Positions 8,309 to 22,918 of a stretch of DNA of 64,000 nt are shown piece by piece; the first letter of the stretch is position 1, and each line of letters starts with the position of its first letter. Position numbers and translations under genes: made by a program. This DNA comes from Gammaproteobacteria bacterium (GTDB lineage: Bacteria; Pseudomonadota; Gammaproteobacteria; Xanthomonadales; Wenzhouxiangellaceae). The notes beneath the pieces were generated by a model that saw only the letters and a program-made list of their open reading frames with translations, was not told the DNA's origin and did not search any database. Location of the stretch: positions 1 to 64,000 of the forward strand of contig JAJFKX010000004.1 of the NCBI GenBank assembly GCA_021772985.1. The letters are read 5' to 3'.

Positions 8309-11300
8309 CTATTGCTGGCAGCTACCAATCCGCTGCTCCCAGCTGCCGTACTGCCACTCGCCATCACCCGACCGGTACAAAGTACGCGTCTCGATAACGC
8401 CATTTCGCAAACGTGCCTGCACCAGGCAAGCCCATTCACCGGCTGCATTGCGTTGCCTTTCAACAACCACATTGGCCTGATTTTCCTGCAAGGTAAGCAG
8501 CAGGAACTCCATGCCCTCGAAACCATCGGCGAACAATGTTGGACGACTCACATCGGAGGCGGTGTTGTCACTTTGATCAACATCGCCTGGAAAATCCACG
8601 GTAACTGTATTGGTGATCGGCATGCTTGCGTTGATTGATACTGTTGCCGACAGGATATAAGTCAAAGTACCACCAACTGGTACATCAACCGTATCGGTAA
8701 TGTTTCCGCTGCCGGTGGCAGCACACACACCACCAGCGCTTGCTGTACACGTCCACATTGCGCTGCTGAGATCACCCGGCAGAATATCGGTGACCGTTGC
8801 CCCCAGGACATTTTCAGTACCGATATTGCTGACCACTATGGTGTACTCAATCGGCTGGCCGGTATCTGCTGTGGCACGGAAATCATCTTTGGTAACCGAC
8901 AGATTCGGTCCATCACCGGTGGTGGTGGTGGTGAAGCTATCGGTGACGCCATTGATGTTGAGCAAGGTGTTCACGTTGGTCAATATGGTGGCTGCCGCAG
9001 TATGCTGCACCGCCACTGAATCACCGTTGTTCACGGTACCTGCTGCCGCGGTAAACGGCCCACCGTTGATCGAATACAGTCCATTGGTGACTGAAATCGG
9101 GGTGGCATCATTGATACCCATTACCGTTATTGGCGCTGATGTCACCGTTGCGGACAACGGCACATCAATTTGATCGACAAACATAAATTGATCTGGCTGG
9201 ATATCCTGTGCTTCAGTGGTGCTGGTAAAGGTATCCGTTACTCCGCCGATATCCAGCACGGTATCTATATCGGCCACAAACGCCGCCGAACTGGTGTGTT
9301 GAACTTGCACATCATCGCCATTGACCACATTACCGCCAGCCGCTATGAACGGACCACCGTTGACCGAATACAGCCCATTGGTGACTGAAATCGCGGTAGC
9401 ATCATTGATGCCTGTAACCGTAATTGCTGCTGATGTCACTGTTGCTGACAGCGGCACATCGGTTTGATCGATAAACATAAACTGATCGGGCACAATATCC
9501 TGCGCCAACGTGGTGCTGGTAAAGGTATCGGTCACTCCACCGACATCCAGTACCGTGTCCACCGCGGTCAGGAAGGTTGCAGCACTGGTGTGTTGAACCT
9601 GTACCATGTCGCCATTGCTGACCATACCCGGCGTGTCGACAAACCCACCGCCGTTAATTGCATAGAGTCCTCCTGTTACGGAAATCGGTGTCGCAGTATT
9701 AATGCCCGATATCGTTACCGTATTGGACGACTGCAGGGCTCCCAGCGCTACATCGGTTACATCGATAAAGATAAATTGATTCGGCATCTGGTCGGTAAAT
9801 TCGAACGCACCAAGATCAAAACCTGATCCGCCAGGCCGTGGATTACCGTCCAAGTCAAACACCGAGGCCGGAGCCTGAGCAGTGAAGTCGAGCCCAGCAT
9901 CAATCGCCGGTGACAGGTCGGTCAGATGGTAGTCCACTATTTCATAGTTGGCCATCTGGCCGATTCCGCTGAGATTATCCGAACGCAGGCTGATGGTAAT
10001 CGTGTCATCAGTGTTACCTGTGATCCGGTAGTGCAAACTTTGAGTAGCATCGGCCCGAATGAACTTGCCGATCAGCGAACCATCCGTCGGTAAGTTGGCG
10101 CCGGTAGCGTTAAGCAAAGCTACACCAGCCCCATTTGAAATGGTCGATCCAAACAATCCATCCAATTGCCCGCTGGGGCCACCAACAAAAGCAGCTGGCG
10201 GATCAGCCGGAACCGTTCCGGACTCGTTAACGGTGCCGATACCGGTATTAAAATTCAAGCTATTGCCATTGAACAATGTCTCCGCCAGCGTCAGCGTTTC
10301 GTTGGTGCTGCGCAATTCCAGCGCAGTGCCGTTGGGGTGGTCTTCCACGATACAGTTGCGTAATGTAGTGGTACCCGAATTCAGATACACGGCCTGGCCC
10401 TGGGTAACAGCCTTGTTCTGGCTGATCACGCAGTGAGTGGCTTCCATGATCCCGGTGGAGCCGGCAACGAACGCCCCGCCACCCTGGTCACCGGCAGTGT
10501 TGCCGGTAAGCAACAGGTTGGTGAATGTGTCAGTGGCGCTGCTGAAATATAACCCGCCACCGTCAGAACCTGCGCGGTTACCGCTGATCACGGTATCCAC
10601 AAAATCACTGGCTGAGTTCTGCGACATACCATCAAAGAACGAAGTGGTACTGTAGATACCACCACCGACACTGTTGGATTGGTTACTGATAAATTGACAG
10701 TTGGTAAAGCTTGAGCGATCAGCACTGCGCCAGATTCCACCACCACTGCTTGCGGAAAAGTTCAGCTCGAAAATACAGTTTTCAAAGGTAGCACTGGATC
10801 TGCTCAAATACGCGCCGCCACCATTGGAACTGGATAAATTGCTGGAAATCAGAACATTGCGCAAAGTGGGGCTGCCCTGCTCTATGATTAATCCGCCACC
10901 AAAACGATCCGGGTTCTGTGCACCTTGTGCATTGCCCAGACCGATACTGAAGCCATCGAGCACCGCACTCGCGTCGGTGCCGGAACCGTCAACCACATGA
11001 TAGCTGTTGTCAGTCTCGATATTCTGGAGACCAAGATTGCCCGAAAGCAACGTTCCATTGGTACGCGGATCGGTATTACGTTGATCACGACTGGTTTCCT
11101 GGGCCCCGCTCAGACCCTCGAACCCACCATACACACCAACGCCGGTTATTAACTGGAATGATTCATTGACGTCGTTGCTTGCCGAAGGCAGATAGGCCCC
11201 ATTGGCAACCCAGATTTCATCACCGGGAATAGCCGCCAGTAAGGCGTCACGCACTGACAGGAAAGCATTACTCCAGCTCAGGCCACTGCCATTACCAGCG

Positions 11301-14300
11301 CTGGCGTCCGGATCAACAAACAGCAGTTCCGCACTACCGCGTTGCACTTCGAAAGCACCCATGTCCACCACCGGTGACGAACCAACACCGGTATCGGGGA
11401 CTTCCAGGATATTGGCAATGCGGTCGAGGCCATCCAGATCCACCTGCACATCGGCCGGCACCCGGGTGCTGTCACCGGCATCAATCGCCGGCGAGCTGAT
11501 CTGCAGCCGCGGATTATCGTCCGCAGTACCAAACAGATCGTCTGCGCCGTCGGCATCAATAAATGCCGGGTCAACATTCAGAATATTGGTACCGGCAGCA
11601 AAACCGCCTTCAACCAATGAGTAATCGGCAAGCACCATACCGGTATCCAGAATAGCCACCGCACCGGTCGCTGTGTTACCCCAGATAATACTGCTGGCCA
11701 TATCTACCGTGGCGGTAGCATCCACCGCCAGGCCACCACCAGACCCTGACGAATCATTGCCGGTGATGGTCAGGTTGATCAGCATAGAGCTGGAGGTATT
11801 GGTGGCCAGAATTGCGCCGCCGTCACTGCCGGCAATATTACCATTGAACTGGGCATTGACAACCATGGGAGCAGAACTCAGCCCAACCGCAAGACCGGCG
11901 CCGCCATCTGCAGACTGATTGGCACGGACGATCAGGTTTTGCAGGATGGGGGCACCGTCATTGACAAAAATACCGGCGCCTATGTTTTCCGGCATGGTGC
12001 CATTGGCAAAACCATCAGCAATCGTGAAACCATCCAGGATGCCGGTGCTGCCACTGTTCACACTGACCACATGGTAGGCGTTGTCGCTACTATCCAATAA
12101 TGTACCGAGGTCACCGCTGAGTATAGTCGTGTTCTGTGACCAGTCTCTTTGGCTACGTTCTGTCTCCGAACCGATAAATCCACCGTAAACAGCAACGTTA
12201 GGAAGGTCGAATGTCGCCAACCGGGAAGCCGGCACTGAAGGCACATAACTGCCTTGTGCAACCCAGACTTCGGTAATTGCCGGCGAATTACAGGTACCAC
12301 CGGCCACCAGTGCAAGCGCATCCTGCAAGTCGGTAAATGCGTTGCCCCAGGTGCTGCCGTTGTTGGCACCAACGGCTAGCTCATTAACAAATAAAATTTC
12401 ATCGGGCGGGCACATCGAGATCAACCCGGCATCTACATTAAGTGTGCGTTGTGCCACGGTCAGCGTGATTGCCGGAGTACGTCCGGTAATTGGATCACCA
12501 CTGGCGGTACTCAAATCAACATCACTGTCAGTGCTGTCATCACCTACATCCTGCGGCGAAAAGCCGAAGCCGGCGGTACGCGACATAAACTCAACTGTAT
12601 AGTCGCCGGGCACCAGTCCGCTGAAGCGATATTCGCCGGTGGTGAAACCTGAAGTCTGGAACTCAAGCAGGTTGTTGGCTGCATCATAAAGACGAACATT
12701 GGTTCGCAGCGTTGGCTCGTCAAGATCACGCTGACCGTCCTGGTTGAGATCAAACCAGCTAACACCTGCGATCGAAGCCGCTTGTTCACCGAAATTGTAA
12801 TTGCTGGCGCTGGTGCCGGAACCCAGGTTAATGTCTTCAATCACATCATTGGTGGTGTTGGTACCACCGGCTGTGCCGATGCTCTCAAGGCCATCATTGA
12901 TGTTCGCAGGCTGGGTCTCGGTGATCTGATAGGTACCCGGAGGTAATGAATTGAAAGAATAGAAACCGTTGCTGCTTGGATCGGAATTATCGAAGAAGGT
13001 GGTTCTCATTATTGGTCCGACCGTATTGCCTTCGAAATCGGTGCCATCGAGCTGCAGCATCACACCACCAATGCCAGCTTCGCGGATCGGGGATGTTTGT
13101 CGAACCCCATCACCATTGACATCGTCGTATACGAAACCTCTTATGCTTCCACTGGTTCGCAATACGCCAAAGTTATATTCCTCACCCTGGTCGCCCAGTA
13201 CCACCGGTACATCACTGATCACATCATCACCGATGGTGCCGCTGTTGGTGCCGCCCAAGCTGCCGATTTGATTGAACCATTCCTGGACTGTGCTCCCGGA
13301 TGGATCATCGATCTGGGTAATGATGTAAGTACCCGGACGCAAGAAATCGAACACATACTGACCAAAGGGGTTGTCAAAGTTGGTTTCAGCAGTACGATTA
13401 ACCGGGCCCCGGTCGTCGACGCCGGTGAGTTGAATGGTTAACGACTCGAAACCGCCTTCACCAACATCCCTGACCTGATTCAGGTTGACATCGGTATACA
13501 CAAAGCCGGACAAACTGGCAGGTTGCAGCAACACGGTCTCGTCGCTGAATGGCAGATTTGAGCTATCCAGCGGGTTGCCTGCCAGATCTGTAATACCGGT
13601 TGCATCATTTAGACTGATGCCCAGGCTGCCGTTAACGGTTGTTGCATAACCGGTTACAAACACCGTTTGCATATCACCATTGTCCGTGACCCGATCAACC
13701 ACCGCCCCCGGTTGACTTGGGGTAACCGTGAACGCAGCTGTGGTAACACCTAATACCGGACGATTGAAAACCACATTGAAGGCAACTTCCTCATCAGCGC
13801 TGGGATTCTCACCAGGGAAGCTGATTGCAGTAACCTGAGGCATAGACTTGAACACCCCGGCCAACTCACCTTCAACAACACTTGCGCCTGTGCCGTTTAA
13901 TGCCCGTCCACTGACATCTCCAACAATACTGTCGTCATCAACCAGATTGAGCCGGAACTCACCCTCGTTGGCCGGGCCAGAGGTATCAACCATGATCGAG
14001 TAAGTACTGCCACTACCAGTGGGAGCAGCCATAATCGGTGTAATTGCACCACTGACAACCGCTATTGCAAAATCACTCGCGTCTACACCGGTCACCGTCT
14101 CGCTAAACTGAATCTGGTATTCGACTGATTCGGTATTGGCTGGATTGGCGCCAACCACAGTCAGTACTGCATCAGGAGCGAATACATCGATCACCCCATA
14201 TACATCTGCGGTATCGGACAGCACGCCCGGTGTGTAACCTGTGCCGGTACCGTTAGCAGCCTGATTACCAGAGAATGTCAGGTTAGTCCCTTCAACCGTG

Positions 14301-15403
14301 GCATCAGGATGAATAAAAATGCCGCCGCCCTTGCGTTTGGGGTTGCCACTGCCGCTGGCTATTTCGGAATTGTTGTTGACAAAAGATACGCCCTGCAGCT
14401 GCAACAGGCCATTGCGGGCAAAAATAGCCCCACCCAGACCGGCGCCGCCGCCGCCGGCTCCACGCCTGCCATCACCACCCAACCGCACGCCGCCATCTAT
14501 AGTGCCGCCCCCCTGAGCGCCACTGCCATTGTTGCCGCCACCGCCGCCGCCACCGCCGTAACCGCCGGGGCCACCGTTCTGTGCGTTCTGGTTGGCTGCC
14601 GACTGGGCGCCACCACCGCCAGCACCACCGAAGCCGCCACCGGTTGCTGTTGAACCATTGTTGTTGTTGCCGCCTCTGCCGCCACCACCACCAAAGGGGT
14701 TGCCATTACCGCCACTGCCTTCAATGGCATTGGGTGAGTTGCCGCCGTTACCGTTGACGCCGCCGCCGCCACCACCACCGCTGTTACCGCCACCGGCATT
14801 GCTGCCGCCGCGAGCGCGATTACCGGAAAAGCTGACATCCTCGATGAATACATTGCCATCATTCAGGAAAAAGGCGCCGCCCAGGCCAGCGGCACCGCCG
14901 CCACCACCACCGCCGCTTCCGCCCCTGCCGCCCTGTGCGAGGGCGTTTGCCAAGCTCAGGTTGGTCAGCGTGAAGTTGCCGGAGGCGTCGTTAACAAAAA
15001 AGATACGCTTATTGAACTCAGAAGTAATTGCCGCAGCATCCAGGGTGATGTTGTTGGCTTGCCCGTCGATCGTCAAATCCCCGGTAATGGTTGGCAGTAT
15101 CGAACCAAGCGCTACGCTGCCGTTAGCCAGACTGGCATCGAAGATGATCAGGTCGGCGCCGCTGCCGGTTTCTCCGAGGTCGGTGGTGGTATCGTCACGC
15201 GCTGCATTAATCGCTTCGCGCAAAGTCACCAGGCCATCACTGGCGGTGGTGTCATCAGCAAGTGAATTGACGGTCAGCGTTGCGGCGCTGATGGTCATTG
15301 GCACAAGCCCGAATGCACAGGCACATAAGATGGCTCTGAAACCATTGTTGAAATTATTAAATAGCCAGCTCTGGCCACCACATACTCGTGAATTTATACT
15401 CAT
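8309..15403 (-). CDS. Giant secreted beta-helix protein with Gly-rich, SdrD-B-like, 98-residue repeat and DUF11 regions
   Basis: 2364 residues. A signal peptide ends near residue 40 (ISA). TLREAINAARDD follows, the CSLREAI-type motif seen before parallel beta-helices. Residues 148-325 are extremely glycine-rich with asparagine. Three SdrD B-like modules lie near 631, 752 and 878 (SGFVYTDVN, RGFVYDDVN, AGVSWFDLN). Two beta-helix blocks, each opening with a GSTWGNAF/GLSWSNAF-like motif, start near 1003 and 1361. A choice-of-anchor-like LSPAIDAG...DLGAFEF segment is near 1825. Three tandem 98-residue repeats cover about 1873-2160, followed by a DUF11-like module and a C-terminus containing FADGFEG. 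ATG 15403 has AGGA nearby (TAGGACGAGTC). The product is probably surface-bound or exported and adhesin-like; no secretion partner gene is adjacent. Function is inferred from architecture only. Confidence 0.85.
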   Translation of the reverse strand: MSINSRVCGGQSWLFNNFNNGFRAILCACAFGLVPMTISAATLTVNSLADDTTASDGLVTLREAINAARDDTTTDLGETGSGADLIIFDASLANGSVALGSILPTITGDLTIDGQANNITLDAAAITSEFNKRIFFVNDASGNFTLTNLSLANALAQGGRGGSGGGGGGGAAGLGGAFFLNDGNVFIEDVSFSGNRARGGSNAGGGNSGGGGGGGVNGNGGNSPNAIEGSGGNGNPFGGGGGRGGNNNNGSTATGGGFGGAGGGGAQSAANQNAQNGGPGGYGGGGGGGGNNGSGAQGGGTIDGGVRLGGDGRRGAGGGGAGLGGAIFARNGLLQLQGVSFVNNNSEIASGSGNPKRKGGGIFIHPDATVEGTNLTFSGNQAANGTGTGYTPGVLSDTADVYGVIDVFAPDAVLTVVGANPANTESVEYQIQFSETVTGVDASDFAIAVVSGAITPIMAAPTGSGSTYSIMVDTSGPANEGEFRLNLVDDDSIVGDVSGRALNGTGASVVEGELAGVFKSMPQVTAISFPGENPSADEEVAFNVVFNRPVLGVTTAAFTVTPSQPGAVVDRVTDNGDMQTVFVTGYATTVNGSLGISLNDATGITDLAGNPLDSSNLPFSDETVLLQPASLSGFVYTDVNLNQVRDVGEGGFESLTIQLTGVDDRGPVNRTAETNFDNPFGQYVFDFLRPGTYIITQIDDPSGSTVQEWFNQIGSLGGTNSGTIGDDVISDVPVVLGDQGEEYNFGVLRTSGSIRGFVYDDVNGDGVRQTSPIREAGIGGVMLQLDGTDFEGNTVGPIMRTTFFDNSDPSSNGFYSFNSLPPGTYQITETQPANINDGLESIGTAGGTNTTNDVIEDINLGSGTSASNYNFGEQAASIAGVSWFDLNQDGQRDLDEPTLRTNVRLYDAANNLLEFQTSGFTTGEYRFSGLVPGDYTVEFMSRTAGFGFSPQDVGDDSTDSDVDLSTASGDPITGRTPAITLTVAQRTLNVDAGLISMCPPDEILFVNELAVGANNGSTWGNAFTDLQDALALVAGGTCNSPAITEVWVAQGSYVPSVPASRLATFDLPNVAVYGGFIGSETERSQRDWSQNTTILSGDLGTLLDSSDNAYHVVSVNSGSTGILDGFTIADGFANGTMPENIGAGIFVNDGAPILQNLIVRANQSADGGAGLAVGLSSAPMVVNAQFNGNIAGSDGGAILATNTSSSMLINLTITGNDSSGSGGGLAVDATATVDMASSIIWGNTATGAVAILDTGMVLADYSLVEGGFAAGTNILNVDPAFIDADGADDLFGTADDNPRLQISSPAIDAGDSTRVPADVQVDLDGLDRIANILEVPDTGVGSSPVVDMGAFEVQRGSAELLFVDPDASAGNGSGLSWSNAFLSVRDALLAAIPGDEIWVANGAYLPSASNDVNESFQLITGVGVYGGFEGLSGAQETSRDQRNTDPRTNGTLLSGNLGLQNIETDNSYHVVDGSGTDASAVLDGFSIGLGNAQGAQNPDRFGGGLIIEQGSPTLRNVLISSNLSSSNGGGAYLSRSSATFENCIFELNFSASSGGGIWRSADRSSFTNCQFISNQSNSVGGGIYSTTSFFDGMSQNSASDFVDTVISGNRAGSDGGGLYFSSATDTFTNLLLTGNTAGDQGGGAFVAGSTGIMEATHCVISQNKAVTQGQAVYLNSGTTTLRNCIVEDHPNGTALELRSTNETLTLAETLFNGNSLNFNTGIGTVNESGTVPADPPAAFVGGPSGQLDGLFGSTISNGAGVALLNATGANLPTDGSLIGKFIRADATQSLHYRITGNTDDTITISLRSDNLSGIGQMANYEIVDYHLTDLSPAIDAGLDFTAQAPASVFDLDGNPRPGGSGFDLGAFEFTDQMPNQFIFIDVTDVALGALQSSNTVTISGINTATPISVTGGLYAINGGGFVDTPGMVSNGDMVQVQHTSAATFLTAVDTVLDVGGVTDTFTSTTLAQDIVPDQFMFIDQTDVPLSATVTSAAITVTGINDATAISVTNGLYSVNGGPFIAAGGNVVNGDDVQVQHTSSAAFVADIDTVLDIGGVTDTFTSTTEAQDIQPDQFMFVDQIDVPLSATVTSAPITVMGINDATPISVTNGLYSINGGPFTAAAGTVNNGDSVAVQHTAAATILTNVNTLLNINGVTDSFTTTTTGDGPNLSVTKDDFRATADTGQPIEYTIVVSNIGTENVLGATVTDILPGDLSSAMWTCTASAGGVCAATGSGNITDTVDVPVGGTLTYILSATVSINASMPITNTVTVDFPGDVDQSDNTASDVSRPTLFADGFEGMEFLLLTLQENQANVVVERQRNAAGEWACLVQARLRNGVIETRTLYRSGDGEWQYGSWEQRIGSCQQ
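8909..9784 (-). repeat. Three tandem 294-bp repeats (98 residues each) inside the giant gene
   Basis: Units begin at 9784, 9490 and 9196, each coding P(N/D)QF(I/M)F(I/V)D followed by DVPLSATVTS, SVTNGLYS(V/I)NGGPF and GGVTDTFTSTT. Units 2 and 3 are more alike than unit 1. The period is exactly 294 bp for the first two units, so this is a coding duplication in frame. Confidence 0.85.
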
Positions 15404-17921: not shown

Positions 17922-18353
17922 CTACAAATATGAGGCCAGCAAAAACAGCATAAATGCAATTCCACTGGCTATACTTCGCAGCCAGTGCAACCTGGCCCAG
18001 CGATTCAATAGCTGCTCGGTTTGCTCCGTTTCCAGCTCACCTGCCAGCAATTTATCATTAATCGGCTTAATCATGATCAAGGTGTAAGGAATCACTGAAA
18101 CCAGCAAGATCGCCCCGAACAACCACCAGATACCAGAGCCCAGCAACCATTGAAACAAGCCTGCGAAGCTGCCCAGGAAAGCAAGCAGCACCTGAATCGG
18201 TGCAGCCTTCAGGTACATTGGCCCAAAGAACCGACCGGCGAAATCAATCCCGGTACTGATCATCGCCGGATGTTGCACCAGCGACATATAAACGGCGATC
18301 CCAAAAAAAACGCCTGCACAAAAGACTGAAAGAATCTGAAACATCGGGTCCAT
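17922..18353 (-). CDS. DUF1772 / anthrone-oxygenase-like membrane protein
   Basis: 143 residues with four hydrophobic segments (about 5-25, 50-70, 75-95, 122-142). SLVQHPAM near residue 25 and RWARLHWLRS near the end are the conserved landmarks of DUF1772 proteins, which are related in sequence to fungal anthrone oxygenases. The bacterial role is unknown. It is a single gene, divergent from the multiheme cytochrome with about 330 bases between starts. ATG at 18353 or the fourth codon could be used. Confidence 0.75.
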   Translation of the reverse strand: MDPMFQILSVFCAGVFFGIAVYMSLVQHPAMISTGIDFAGRFFGPMYLKAAPIQVLLAFLGSFAGLFQWLLGSGIWWLFGAILLVSVIPYTLIMIKPINDKLLAGELETEQTEQLLNRWARLHWLRSIASGIAFMLFLLASYL

Positions 18354-18685
18354 AGAATTACCTGTTATGTCTATTATTTTTGGTAATGCCAGCAGTGCAA
18401 TAGGTGCTTGTTGCCAGCACCTTCATGTTAACTCAACATATGTGAATGTCAGCTGAAGCCTGGTGGCCAAAAATGCTTTACCAGCATAAACTTCGCAAAA
18501 ATCAGTACCTTGGTTGTCACCCTATTTCGATGGGCAACAGACCTGGTCGGTCAGATTTGCGCTTGAAAGCAGAATCGAGCTGCAATTCAGGTAACGGCAT
18601 AACCGCCTTTCTCCTGGCGAGCAATCCCAAGTCTAATCTGCTATCTTTAGCGCCGAAAGATACTATAAATGGCAGGGGAGATGTT
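18354..18685. other. Divergent promoter region between DUF1772 and cytochrome genes
   Basis: 332 bases. The cytochrome frame is open back to 18446, but those 80 codons have no family look and would bury the signal peptide. AGGGGAG at 18674-18680 is the ribosome site for ATG 18686. No riboswitch or palindromic operator was recognised. Confidence 0.55.
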
Positions 18686-21600
18686 ATGGAAGTTAGTATT
18701 CTTGGTACCAGCGATAATACCGCTTTTCACGGTAACCACCGGCACTTATTCGCAAGTTCGATTTTATTCATTGCCCTGATCTGCATGGCAGGCACCGCCA
18801 CCGCGGTTGATTTTCTGCCCGCTGATCCGGCTGATTGGGTCTGTCCCAGCAGTGAAATCGAGCCCACCCAGGCGCAAATAGAATCACTCTGCGGCAAGCT
18901 GCCCTGGGACGCTCAAAACCCGAAACCCGATTTTGGCAAACCAGCGGTATTGCCACCACCTGCCACACTCCACGACCTGGCAGCTAAAAATCGCTATGAC
19001 GAAGCCCTGGTGACGTTTATCAATCAGCGGCAGTACATCAAAGACGGTTGGAAATCTGACTTGAACTGGCGCATGACCGGCCCCTATGTCGGCAAAATCG
19101 GCTCTGGTAAAACCTTTGGTGTGCACCCGGCAGTAAAAATCTACTACTCACCGGCAGTCACCGAGTGGTTGTGCAAAGACCGTGAAGGTCCGATCCCCGA
19201 TAATGCCATGATCGTCAAGGAAATGCGCAATATTGACGATAATCTGAATATTCAGCTGAATAACGAAGGCTGCATGGAAATTCCTGATCCCGATTTAGAG
19301 GCTGAATCCTGGGCGATTATGGTCAAGCACAAACAAATCAGTCACGATGGCTGGTATTGGGCCGGTTTTTCTCAGAGCCCGGAAGACCCGAAAAACCCCG
19401 ACAAAGTTAAATTGATTGGCAATCCACCGATCAACGACAAAACCGCTGTTACTACCGCAGCTGCTGAATTTTTTGGTCCGCCACCGGTAAAACGAGACTC
19501 GCTGTGGTATCCCACCGGTGTGCTGTTTGAACCGCTGCCACAGGGTGCACAAAAACCCAATGCAGTGTTCCCCTACAACTCCTTCGGCAACTATTGCGTG
19601 AACTGCCATGCTTCTGCAATGAGCGAGGCAACCTACTCTTCGTTGGATAATATCCTGACACCCGGACTGGAGTACAAAGGCTACAACCTGGATGGCCTGA
19701 TGAAAAGAATTATCCCTGCCAGCGAACTGCGTTCCATCGATAATGCACTGCTTGCTGACAAACATGCCCGGGATGGCCTTGCGCTGACTGCTTTATCGGC
19801 TGCCAAAACCAAGACTTATCAAACGCCGTTTGCTGACCCATTACCTGAAAGCAATGCGAGGTTCCTGGCTTTTTATAATCAATTACCTGATATGAGTTTT
19901 GAGCAGGCGCTTAACCTTCGACTACCGGCCGAGACTTTTGATCATCGTATGTCAGGTCCCAATGGTCCGCAGGGCTTTCTGACTTCCGACCAATGCATTG
20001 GTTGCCATGACGGTACTTACTCGAACTCGGCCATACCCAATATGGTGATCGAAGATCCGGACACTAATGAACTGGTCAATCTTTCACCCTATGGTGAATG
20101 GCGGGCTTCACCAATGGGCCTGGCCGGACGTGACCCGATCTTTTTCTCGCAGCTGCAAAGCGAAACCAACCACCTGCCGGAAATGACCCAGTGTATTCAA
20201 AACACCTGTCTGCATTGCCATGGTGTGATGGGGCAACGGCAACAGGCCATAGATACCCAGGGCTATGGCGGTGATACCTGTGAGGAAATTTTTGCCATCC
20301 CACCACCGGAGGGTGTGCCCTTCGGTAAACCGTTTGCGCTGGAACAGGTCACTCAATGGCAGGATTCCGAGCACGTTGATCCCAAATATGGCTCACTGGC
20401 GCGGGACGGAATTTCCTGTGCAGTATGTCATCACATGACCAATGAAGAATTTGGCAAGGAACCTTCATTCACCGGGAACTTTGTTACCGGTCCGTTTGAT
20501 GTGTTTTACGGTCCATTCGAAAATGACACCATTGCCAGAAAACCGATGCAACGCGCACTTGGCGTGACGCCAGAATACGGCCAACAGATCAGGGGCTCAG
20601 GCTTATGCGGCAGCTGCCATAACATTCTTTTGCCGATCTTCAACAACGATGGTACGCCACATACTTTCGAGCACGATGGTCAAACCTTATCCGCTACTTA
20701 CGAACAAACCACTCACCTGGAGTGGGTCAACAGCGATTTTTCCAAACCGGGCACACTCAAGTCCTGCCGTGATTGTCATATGGGTGACAAGTACAAGGAC
20801 AACCCCCTGGAACAGGAAAACCTGGCTGGTGAAGTACAACCGTTCCGGATTGCTAATATCGAAGATGATACTTTTGCACCAACCACCCACCGGATGCCGA
20901 ATGACAAAATTACCCAGACACCGCGACCGGACTATCGCCGTCATCAACTGCATGGCTTGAATGTATTTCTAAATGAGTTCTTCCAGCAATTCCCGGTCAT
21001 TCTGGGGGTGCGTCAAATCGATTATATGACCGGCAGCGGGGTAACACCGCCGTTGATTACCGGACGTGAATCAATGCTGGAGATGGCAGAAAATGAAACT
21101 GCAGAAGTCAGCATAGAGTCGTTCAAGAAAACTGCCGCAAACCAGTTGACTGCAGAGCTGCTGGTCACCAATAAGGTTGGCCATTATTTCCCTTCCGGGG
21201 TTGGCTTCCGGCGAGTATTCCTGGAAGTATTGTTACAGGACAAAGACAACAACAATTTGTGGGCTTCGGGACGCACCAATGAATTGGGTGCTATTTTGTA
21301 TGGCACGACCAATCAGGTGCTACCCAGCGAACAACCGGTTAAATTTCCGCATATGCCGTTCCAGCAGCATTACCAAACCATTACCAGCGGTGATCAGGTG
21401 CAAATTTATCAGGAGTTGATCGAAGACTCTGCAGGAAATCTGACCACCAGCTTTATGCGACGGGTCAAACATGTCAAAGACAATCGTTTGCGGCCCAAAG
21501 GGTTTGACCCGCAGGTCTTTTTAGATAACCCATCACCGTACATTCAAATTATCGGTGAAATCGATGGCCAAGCCGAACATGACCCTTATTACTACAACCC

Positions 21601-21901
21601 GGAGCTTACCGGTGCAGATAAAATTAAATATCAGATGACCATGGACACTGCGACCATGGCCAAAGTGGATCATATCAAGGTAACCATTTACAGCCAGTCC
21701 ATTCCACCGTTTTACTTACAGGAACGTTTCCGGGACGCCAATGCAGGAAAAGATCCTAAGAAGAACGAAATCCAGCGATTGTTTTATTTGACCAGTCACT
21801 TGAATACGGCAGCCACCGATAACAATGGTGAAACCTATATCAAAGACTGGAAACTGAAAGTAACCGATACCTGTGCCACGCTTAGCGGGCCATGTAAATA
21901 A
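18686..21901 (+). CDS. Exported multiheme c-type cytochrome with P460-like N-terminus
   Basis: 1071 residues after choosing ATG 18686, which follows a GGGGAG ribosome site and puts a signal peptide (FASSILFIALICMAGTATA) at residues 24-42. Six CxxCH haem-attachment motifs are seen: CVNCH 304, CIGCH 437, CLHCH 508, CAVCH 578, CGSCH 641, CRDCH 694. Residues 90-310 resemble cytochrome P460: a GVHPAVKIYYSP and GPIPDNAMIVKE pair ends in the first CxxCH. The last 370 residues lack haem motifs and look beta-rich. It is likely a periplasmic or outer-surface redox protein; substrate unknown. P460 homology is an inference from motif memory. It is followed by a truncated patatin gene. Confidence 0.85.
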   Translation: MEVSILGTSDNTAFHGNHRHLFASSILFIALICMAGTATAVDFLPADPADWVCPSSEIEPTQAQIESLCGKLPWDAQNPKPDFGKPAVLPPPATLHDLAAKNRYDEALVTFINQRQYIKDGWKSDLNWRMTGPYVGKIGSGKTFGVHPAVKIYYSPAVTEWLCKDREGPIPDNAMIVKEMRNIDDNLNIQLNNEGCMEIPDPDLEAESWAIMVKHKQISHDGWYWAGFSQSPEDPKNPDKVKLIGNPPINDKTAVTTAAAEFFGPPPVKRDSLWYPTGVLFEPLPQGAQKPNAVFPYNSFGNYCVNCHASAMSEATYSSLDNILTPGLEYKGYNLDGLMKRIIPASELRSIDNALLADKHARDGLALTALSAAKTKTYQTPFADPLPESNARFLAFYNQLPDMSFEQALNLRLPAETFDHRMSGPNGPQGFLTSDQCIGCHDGTYSNSAIPNMVIEDPDTNELVNLSPYGEWRASPMGLAGRDPIFFSQLQSETNHLPEMTQCIQNTCLHCHGVMGQRQQAIDTQGYGGDTCEEIFAIPPPEGVPFGKPFALEQVTQWQDSEHVDPKYGSLARDGISCAVCHHMTNEEFGKEPSFTGNFVTGPFDVFYGPFENDTIARKPMQRALGVTPEYGQQIRGSGLCGSCHNILLPIFNNDGTPHTFEHDGQTLSATYEQTTHLEWVNSDFSKPGTLKSCRDCHMGDKYKDNPLEQENLAGEVQPFRIANIEDDTFAPTTHRMPNDKITQTPRPDYRRHQLHGLNVFLNEFFQQFPVILGVRQIDYMTGSGVTPPLITGRESMLEMAENETAEVSIESFKKTAANQLTAELLVTNKVGHYFPSGVGFRRVFLEVLLQDKDNNNLWASGRTNELGAILYGTTNQVLPSEQPVKFPHMPFQQHYQTITSGDQVQIYQELIEDSAGNLTTSFMRRVKHVKDNRLRPKGFDPQVFLDNPSPYIQIIGEIDGQAEHDPYYYNPELTGADKIKYQMTMDTATMAKVDHIKVTIYSQSIPPFYLQERFRDANAGKDPKKNEIQRLFYLTSHLNTAATDNNGETYIKDWKLKVTDTCATLSGPCK

Positions 21902-22315: not shown

Positions 22316-22918
22316 TTAATCAATAAATCGGCAGGCATCCACTTCACAAAGTATCCTGACATTATTAAAGCCAACCGCAAATGCCCGTTTGGTTATATCA
22401 GCATTGGTAAAGGTTTTACTGGCTTTGTTTTCACAGGCCAGCTTGGCCATTTCCGCCCGGCTCATTTCGCCCCGGTTATCAACAAAAATTTTGCCTTCGT
22501 AAACCGGATTTATCCAGACCACAAAGTCTTGCGTATCTCCGGGTCTTATTTCCACCCCGCTGATGCCTTTGCCTTTAGGGTCGGTATAGCCACATTCCGT
22601 CCAACGATTGTTTCTGGAATTGGTCAGTTTAATTGGAACCTGGGTAGGTTTATTGCAAATGCGGTTCCAGCGGGTTTTTTTCTCAAAAAAGTCGCCAAAA
22701 CAATAGTCAATTCCACAATCCGGCTGACAAGCCCTGAACCCATCATCACGGCTTACCCGAATAGGGCAACGTTCCAATTCACTCTGGTAACATTTAGGCC
22801 CAATCACATCATAGTTAAACAGGGTCTTTTCCTGTCCGAAAACGCTACTTACAACCAGCAGCAATAATAATGGTATCCCGTTGATAAGTTGGATTGGTTT
22901 CGGTATTTGCAACAGCAT
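22316..22918 (-). CDS. Secreted cysteine-rich protein of unknown function
   Basis: 200 residues. A hydrophobic signal segment (PLLLLLVVSSVFG) ends near residue 28. The mature part holds ten cysteines, an even number suiting disulfides in the periplasm or outside. They cluster as KCYQSELERC, ACQPDCGIDYC and RICNK, with four more towards the C-terminus. ATG 22918 has GGGAGAAG upstream. I do not recognise a family. It faces the cytochrome and patatin remnant convergently. Confidence 0.65.
   Translation of the reverse strand: MLLQIPKPIQLINGIPLLLLLVVSSVFGQEKTLFNYDVIGPKCYQSELERCPIRVSRDDGFRACQPDCGIDYCFGDFFEKKTRWNRICNKPTQVPIKLTNSRNNRWTECGYTDPKGKGISGVEIRPGDTQDFVVWINPVYEGKIFVDNRGEMSRAEMAKLACENKASKTFTNADITKRAFAVGFNNVRILCEVDACRFID

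Follow-up and report, generated by a model that had tools for sequence, protein, structure and literature searches.

Fusion of a cytochrome P460-type domain with a pentahaem cytochrome module in a conserved family of bacterial proteins

The gene at positions 18686 to 21901 of the window (the whole stretch of DNA analysed here, i.e. the first 64,000 nucleotides of contig JAJFKX010000004.1 from a gammaproteobacterium) raises the question of whether a cytochrome P460 can occur in one chain with a multihaem cytochrome and, if so, what such a protein might do. Cytochromes P460 in the PDB are monohaem proteins of ~160-200 residues, whereas the product of this gene carries a P460-type domain fused to five further haems. 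Computationally, its two modules are established by identity and fold and their fusion is conserved; six haem sites and a lysine (Lys178) at the haem cross-linking position are present while the catalytic carboxylate is missing. We consider it probable (roughly 0.6) that the protein represents a wired P460-type site, in which a P460-type haem and a pentahaem relay are combined in one chain. The features on which this reading is based are as follows.

18686-21901, + strand: whole gene, P460-pentahaem fusion protein of 1071 aa (translation of the open reading frame, full-length relatives)
18674-18685, + strand: probable ribosome-binding site, AGGGGAGATGTT, directly 5' of the ATG (read in the sequence)
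18686-18805, + strand: probable Sec signal peptide, residues 1-40, ending ...GTATA|V (sequence; predicted local distance difference test score, pLDDT, <50 at residues 1-17)
18962-19660, + strand: cytochrome P460/c'-beta-type domain, residues 93-325 (fold, Pfam, profile comparison)
19124-19126, + strand: His147, candidate pocket residue, invariant in 75/75 (alignment)
19217-19219, + strand: Lys178, aligned with the haem cross-linking Lys (Lys70 of NeP460, Lys106 of NsP460), Lys in 75/75
19313-19315, + strand: Ala210, aligned with the catalytic carboxylate position (Glu96 of NeP460, Ala131 of NsP460)
19595-19609, + strand: haem 1 motif CVNCH, residues 304-308, haem of the P460-type domain (this and the following motifs by motif search)
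19952-21883, + strand: pentahaem module of c552/PHC type, residues 423-1066 (fold match to 5ze8)
19994-20008, + strand: haem 2 motif CIGCH, residues 437-441
20207-20221, + strand: haem 3 motif CLHCH, residues 508-512
20417-20431, + strand: haem 4 motif CAVCH, residues 578-582
20606-20620, + strand: haem 5 motif CGSCH, residues 641-645
20765-20779, + strand: haem 6 motif CRDCH, residues 694-698, followed by the invariant Met699
21089-21886, + strand: C-terminal beta-sandwich region, residues 802-1067, with a GHxxPSGVxFRR-type motif, within the pentahaem module (model, alignment)

In the models, residues 93-325 adopt the fold of the cytochromes P460 and c'-beta. When this domain was modelled alone by AlphaFold (pLDDT 81.0) and compared with 998 solved chains, the top 17 rows were all P460 or c'-beta proteins, with Z-scores from 11.1 (7ead) to 7.6 (2je2, the 17th row), after which the score dropped to 4.7; taken as part of the full-length model, this domain matched 7ead with Z 10.3 and 6amg with Z 8.7. 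Because Foldseek alone was weak for this half (7ead with E 0.017 for the full model; 6hiu as the best match, E 0.0017, for the domain alone), the call leans on the Z-scores and on the gap to the unrelated rows. With the full model, Foldseek rows of Brr2 helicases ranked between those of the pentahaem protein 5ze8 (see below) and those of P460, and were taken as beta-sandwich matches of the C-terminal region since similar rows align at 805-1067. The fold, the late CxxCH, the cross-link Lys and the 'PDGxxxxKE' and 'xMVKD..GW' blocks are common to this domain and to the cytochromes P460 (NeP460, 2je3; McP460, 6hiu; NsP460, 6amg).

At the level of sequence families, the Pfam model PF16694 (Cytochrome_P460) matched 60 of the 75 aligned N-terminal domains with E<=0.01 (best 1.7e-11). 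The window domain itself scored 24.8 bits (E 3.1e-5), just below the curated cut-off of 27, and the whole window protein E 0.02; the fusion protein was not listed when the genome was searched with the PF16694 model. Profile-profile comparison of the family with 23 single-domain proteins (motif-pattern picks from the loci of the PF16694 genome search) plus NsP460 gave a probability of 97.9 over 78 aligned columns. Searches with a single sequence lacked the power to show this: phmmer against the PDB gave no match and a first scan of the genome contigs found no relative. Likewise, a profile of six N-terminal domains retrieved no P460 from the PDB; the link was recovered by family profiles, profile-profile and fold comparison. 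The P460-like patterns singled out in the original prediction, which had been made from the letters of this DNA alone, are located at residues 147-156 (HPAVKIYYSP) and 170-179 (IPDNAMIVKE) and are followed by the CxxCH at 304, and the proposed joining of a P460 domain to a five-haem cytochrome is borne out by the Pfam, profile and fold matches. The opposite outcome, namely no P460 match and one family over the entire length, is not what was found, since no single Pfam or NCBIfam family spans the whole window protein.

The second part of the chain corresponds to a single known type of protein. In the full-length model (pLDDT 89.2; predicted template modelling score 0.90), residues 423-1066 matched the pentahaem cytochrome c552 of Thermochromatium tepidum (5ze8) with Z 18.7, a root mean square deviation of 2.9 and 19% identity over 351 aligned residues of 385; the same match was obtained by Foldseek (E 6.8e-10) and by hmmsearch (whole-sequence E 5.4e-5, best stretch 0.0053). 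The 370-residue haem-free, beta-rich end that had been described earlier does exist, as the last 373 residues contain no CxxCH and many strands, but it is part of the pentahaem module: because the 5ze8 match takes in this tail, the protein has two modules and not three. A separate C-terminal domain of a new type was thus rejected. Region 802-1067 also resembles many Ig-like or beta-sandwich domains, with Z 6.5-8.2, a commonly reached range. In the passages of PMC11976967 covered here, the PHC family (ExtKL, Gsu2801 and the cable-bacterium sPHC and lPHC proteins) is described as structurally like c552 and as having an Ig-like domain, and some of its members (some lPHC proteins) carry an added truncated-haemoglobin domain. 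The five haems and, probably, the C-terminal beta-sandwich are common to 5ze8, the PHC family and the fusion, although the sequence relation to the PHC family is distant, the ExtKL model (NCBIfam NF040886) giving the window protein 17.2 bits against a curated cut-off of 250. By analogy, PHC proteins provide a precedent for an additional haem domain, though of another kind than the P460 type found here.

Six unfused pentahaem proteins were scanned; two had an N-terminal glucose/sorbosone dehydrogenase and F5/8C domains and one had Calx-beta. Since related copies carry other redox domains, the pentahaem unit looks like a general relay attached to different partners. The two proteins with a dehydrogenase (L048:4329-7790 and L049:2543-6070, both + strand) are possibly self-wired sugar dehydrogenases. 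A divergent five-haem protein of 598 aa with a carboxypeptidase-regulatory-like domain is also encoded on the window's own contig, at ~84.6-86.4 kb (L112:2622-4418, + strand).

Of the six CxxCH motifs, those of haems 2-6 are packed into 262 residues, in agreement with the five further motifs (437-694) first noticed over ~260 residues. In 2000 shuffles of the window protein the mean number of CxxCH was 0.0095 and the maximum 1, which excludes a chance origin of the six observed. All six are kept in 75/75 aligned proteins, a count that is partly the result of selection because a relative having one motif as CxxRH (L185) was left out of the alignment.

A profile search of GTDB contigs yielded 319 relatives; all counts of relatives concern the best 80 of the 319 and hold for these nearest ones. 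Going by their titles and NCBI's taxonomy, the 80 records, many of them metagenome-assembled genomes, bear names from nine phyla: Pseudomonadota (30), Acidobacteriota (15), Planctomycetota (11), Myxococcota (7), Bacteroidota (6), Thermodesulfobacteriota (2), Verrucomicrobiota (2), Candidatus Binatota (1) and Gemmatimonadota (1), with no phylum for 5. The alignment comprises 74 of them plus the window protein (75 proteins). The loci left out were L138, in which the P460 and pentahaem parts occur in two frames with a break near haem 1; L147, L153 and L157, each cut by a contig end; and L145 (1552 aa with a large insertion) and L185, which both have the P460 domain. The end of this domain is present in the fragments of L147 and L157, and L153 begins too late to tell; none of the six excluded loci with enough sequence is without the domain. 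As the scan patterns sit in the pentahaem half, they involved no selection for the P460 half, although longer matches may have been ranked higher. In one metagenome-assembled genome (L045 and L138:5251-8381) the two parts are encoded by two frames that overlap, with the break near haem 1; this reflects either a real split or a sequencing error.

Among 398 genomes of the window's phylum (Pseudomonadota) the domain profile matched 8, all in frames of 997-1151 aa, and a smaller profile gave the same 8; against 30 multihaem proteins, it matched the 10 full-length fusions and none of the other 20. Of 369 genomes sampled from the class, 20 had a match of any kind, 2 of them (the window's own genome and G367) with the full-length fusion and 18 with the pentahaem type only. 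A tree of the pentahaem half, built by a quick method (LG+G4) with long-branch warnings for L112 and L176, has one branch that splits the 75 fused copies from 17 unfused ones with a Shimodaira-Hasegawa-like approximate likelihood ratio support of 100; the unfused copies came from the class-sample scan plus L055 and L112 (own genome), and intermediates may exist. Pairwise distances in one half are correlated with those in the other (r 0.74, 2775 pairs), as shared ancestry alone would also produce. An assembly artefact is excluded, the same fusion occurring in named strains including two complete genomes (L162 and L168). Of the earlier notion of an unusual one-protein redox machine, the fusion itself is supported but not its rarity, as it belongs to a conserved family and is no one-off. 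Two plasmid records match as well, one of which, covering 92% of the protein, is labelled 'hypothetical protein'.

The pocket of the P460-type domain combines features of different P460 proteins. In the parts of the review PMC11928373 covered here, the cross-link Lys of cytochromes P460 is Lys70, Lys78 or Lys106, the catalytic carboxylate is Glu96 or Asp102 with Ala131 in the inactive NsP460, the change of Ala131 to Glu brings a gain of activity, and the cross-link Lys is replaced by Phe or Met in the c'-beta proteins of its Table 2. The profile alignment pairs K178 with Lys106 and A210 with Ala131 of NsP460; the cross-link lysine, a check suggested with the original prediction, is thus K178 and is invariant (75/75). 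Position 210 is Thr in 60 of the 75 proteins, Ala in 12, Val in 2 and Ser in 1, and is never acidic, so that the family mostly has Thr or Ala there, like the inactive NsP460. Tyr154, Trp161, Arg129 and Trp223 are further invariant residues. Judged by sequence, the fused family has Lys kept and the carboxylate missing, like the 'halfway house' P460s of the same review, as far as its text was covered; the carboxylate may be supplied from elsewhere in the chain. The 75 proteins represent a natural experiment, in which the Lys is always kept and the carboxylate never. Among the 23 single-domain P460 proteins compared, Lys+Glu occurs in 7, Lys+Phe in 3 and Phe+Gly in 5, the remaining 8 showing another combination or a gap. 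Six of these free proteins score E<1e-5 with the fused-domain profile, three of them having Lys+Phe.

Two tandem pairs of single-domain P460 genes are found in the window's own genome (G000:C11:487401-488407, - strand, and C18:92621-93760, + strand). One copy of the first pair has Lys+Glu and the other Lys+Phe, and the same holds for the second pair (one copy judged by eye). With the fused-domain profile, the Lys+Phe copies rank among the best-scoring free P460s. Contig C30 of this genome encodes a second, different P460 fusion of 860 aa (L110:5841-8423, - strand), which starts with a P460-type region, has a CMQCH motif further on and ends in a CVNH (cyanovirin-type) region.

For a wired P460-type site, we propose that the protein is exported to the periplasm and is in some relatives probably lipid-anchored, that the P460-type haem, probably Lys-cross-linked and high-spin, would be the ligand-binding or active site, and that haem 1 would lie within electron-transfer range of the other five haems, the c552/PHC-type module supplying or removing its electrons. 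The ligand would be nitric oxide (NO) or a related small N-oxide: because position 210 is non-acidic throughout, binding or turnover of NO, or of another small oxidant, is expected rather than hydroxylamine oxidation of the NeP460 type. The protein thus probably handles NO or related N-oxides, and its best reading is not that of a nitrifier's hydroxylamine oxidase. Several observations weigh against this proposal or parts of it. The best fold match is a c'-beta protein (7ead) and not a P460; the other three high scorers with the fused-domain profile (L082 twice, L091) have no Lys at the aligned position, their alignment being unsure; and the scan of 398 genomes scored at most 7 candidates per genome, so that a weak free-standing form could escape. 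Passages of PMC11976967 suggest that some PHC haems are open catalytic sites and, by analogy, some haems of the present module may be so themselves. NirK scored above its curated cut-off in only 8/50 host genomes (those of 49 relatives plus the window's own, which is one of the 8) and in 1/14 control genomes. No widely conserved neighbour was detected, the largest cluster of neighbouring genes comprising 8 of 80 loci (open reading frames within 5.5 kb, some loci being cut by contig ends). FNR-, NnrR- and NsrR-like sites each occurred in 0/74 upstream regions, with patterns of low power that gave 0.05-0.7 in mononucleotide shuffles. With neither a conserved neighbour nor NO-type regulator sites, nothing in the context points to NO. 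As read from these genomes, the context says that the gene stands alone, in hosts that are mostly not nitrifiers.

The alternatives differ in the direction of electron flow and in the role given to haem 1. The pentahaem module could feed a P460-type haem that reduces NO, hydroxylamine or peroxide, which would fit the low potentials (-300 to -424 mV) listed for P460 haems and the conversion of NO to N2O by NOR or cytochrome P460 named in the covered parts of PMC11928373, and for which loss of the carboxylate should matter less than in the oxidative direction; with no reductive enzyme of such build in the literature covered and no conserved partner gene at the 80 loci, this is a somewhat doubtful option. 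The reverse flow, in which hydroxylamine would be oxidised to NO or N2O at the P460 haem and the five haems would take the electrons as a functional parallel of the octahaem HAO, is consistent with the invariant Lys, with a multihaem module adjoining the P460 domain and with Table 2 of PMC11928373, where, as far as this source was covered, active cytochromes P460 have the cross-link Lys and cross-link-deficient ones are inactive. The proton-accepting carboxylate position, however, is never acidic in the 75 proteins; in the same source NsP460 is inactive with Ala and active as Ala131Glu. Moreover, as AMO was found in 1/50 hosts, 49 show no source of hydroxylamine by ammonia oxidation. We regard such an oxidase as quite unlikely, and the P460 hydroxylamine oxidation named in the original prediction is less likely for this protein. 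The likeness to HAO, with its cross-linked catalytic haem and haem relay, is an analogy only. HAO has eight haems, against six CxxCH in the window protein, and another fold. Its cross-link is a Tyr from a neighbouring subunit (in the parts of PMC12758564 covered).

A P460-like domain that binds NO or CO and thereby modulates or protects the pentahaem relay would be in line with the best fold match being a c'-beta protein, a group for which NO/CO binding has been proposed, with the non-acidic residue at the carboxylate position and, by analogy, with the truncated-haemoglobin domains that some PHC proteins of cable bacteria carry in the covered text of PMC11976967. The fold and the non-acidic position are common to cytochromes c'-beta (7ead, 6hih, 7s5o) and the fusion, but the former are monohaem and unfused and have Phe or Met instead of the Lys that is invariant here, which makes a gas-binding or sensing role rather doubtful. 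Still less support is given to a cytochrome for electron transfer or extracellular reduction only, of which the P460-like domain would be a structural cap: extracellular electron transfer is proposed for the PHC relative ExtKL in the covered part of PMC11976967 and the ExtKL model weakly hits (E<=0.01) 7 of 11 members, whereas the haem-1 motif, Lys178, His147, Arg129, Tyr154 and Trp223 are invariant (75/75) and argue for a working haem pocket, so that we hold this explanation to be very unlikely. Chemistry of kinds other than those named is given somewhat more weight than the hydroxylamine oxidase but less than gas binding.

The fusion may be a protein that brings its own electron wiring to the handling of small nitrogen oxides. 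We know of no settled natural electron partner of cytochrome P460, and the conserved fusion directly names a partner module for its haem. It is tentatively suggested that these proteins form a widespread new enzyme class, mostly in non-nitrifiers of nine phyla, in which a Lys-cross-linked P460 haem, served by a pentahaem wire in the same chain, would turn over NO or hydroxylamine without the carboxylate and a c552-type pentahaem protein would be the natural electron partner of P460. The fusion also bears on annotation. It occurs in Singulisphaera (L168), which we take to belong to the Isosphaeraceae. In the parts of a metagenome study covered here (PMC9938248), PF16694 is taken as a mark of hydroxylamine oxidation to N2O and is reported in 6/7 Isosphaeraceae genomes. 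No description of a P460-pentahaem fusion was found among the matches listed for open PMC papers searched by title and start of abstract, subscription papers lying mostly outside, or in the covered parts of PMC12758564, PMC6934571, PMC6703420, PMC9938248, PMC4429474 and PMC6427953; the words 'fused', 'fusion' and 'multi-domain' are absent from those of the review PMC11928373.

The mechanical open reading frame of the fusion gene opens further upstream, at 18446 (1151 aa). Start at the ATG at 18686 is preferred because it is preceded by a ribosome-binding-like sequence (AGGGGAG) and gives a signal-like protein start; the stop ends at 21901. In some relatives the sequence has a lipobox-like start instead of a Sec-type signal. 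In the window, the neighbours of the gene are on the opposite strand and seemingly unrelated, with an Anthrone_oxy-family protein before it (17922-18353) and, after it, a protein without Pfam match (22316-22918) followed by a GNAT acetyltransferase. At the loci of relatives, the neighbour cluster present at 8 loci corresponds to ABC-type ATPases (by eye) at varying distances, and one of 5 loci to protein kinases (by eye). A Popeye-like membrane protein lies near the fusion gene at 6/80 loci, in 5/6 within 200 bases, in planctomycete and acidobacterial records; Pfam was checked in two of the six (POPDC1-3). These genes include L174:9728-10225 and L190:5107-5766 (both - strand), the latter also with a cyclic-nucleotide domain. 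Finally, a probable surface protein of 2364 aa, containing a DUF11 domain and three SdrD_B stretches, is encoded elsewhere in the window (8309-15403, - strand).

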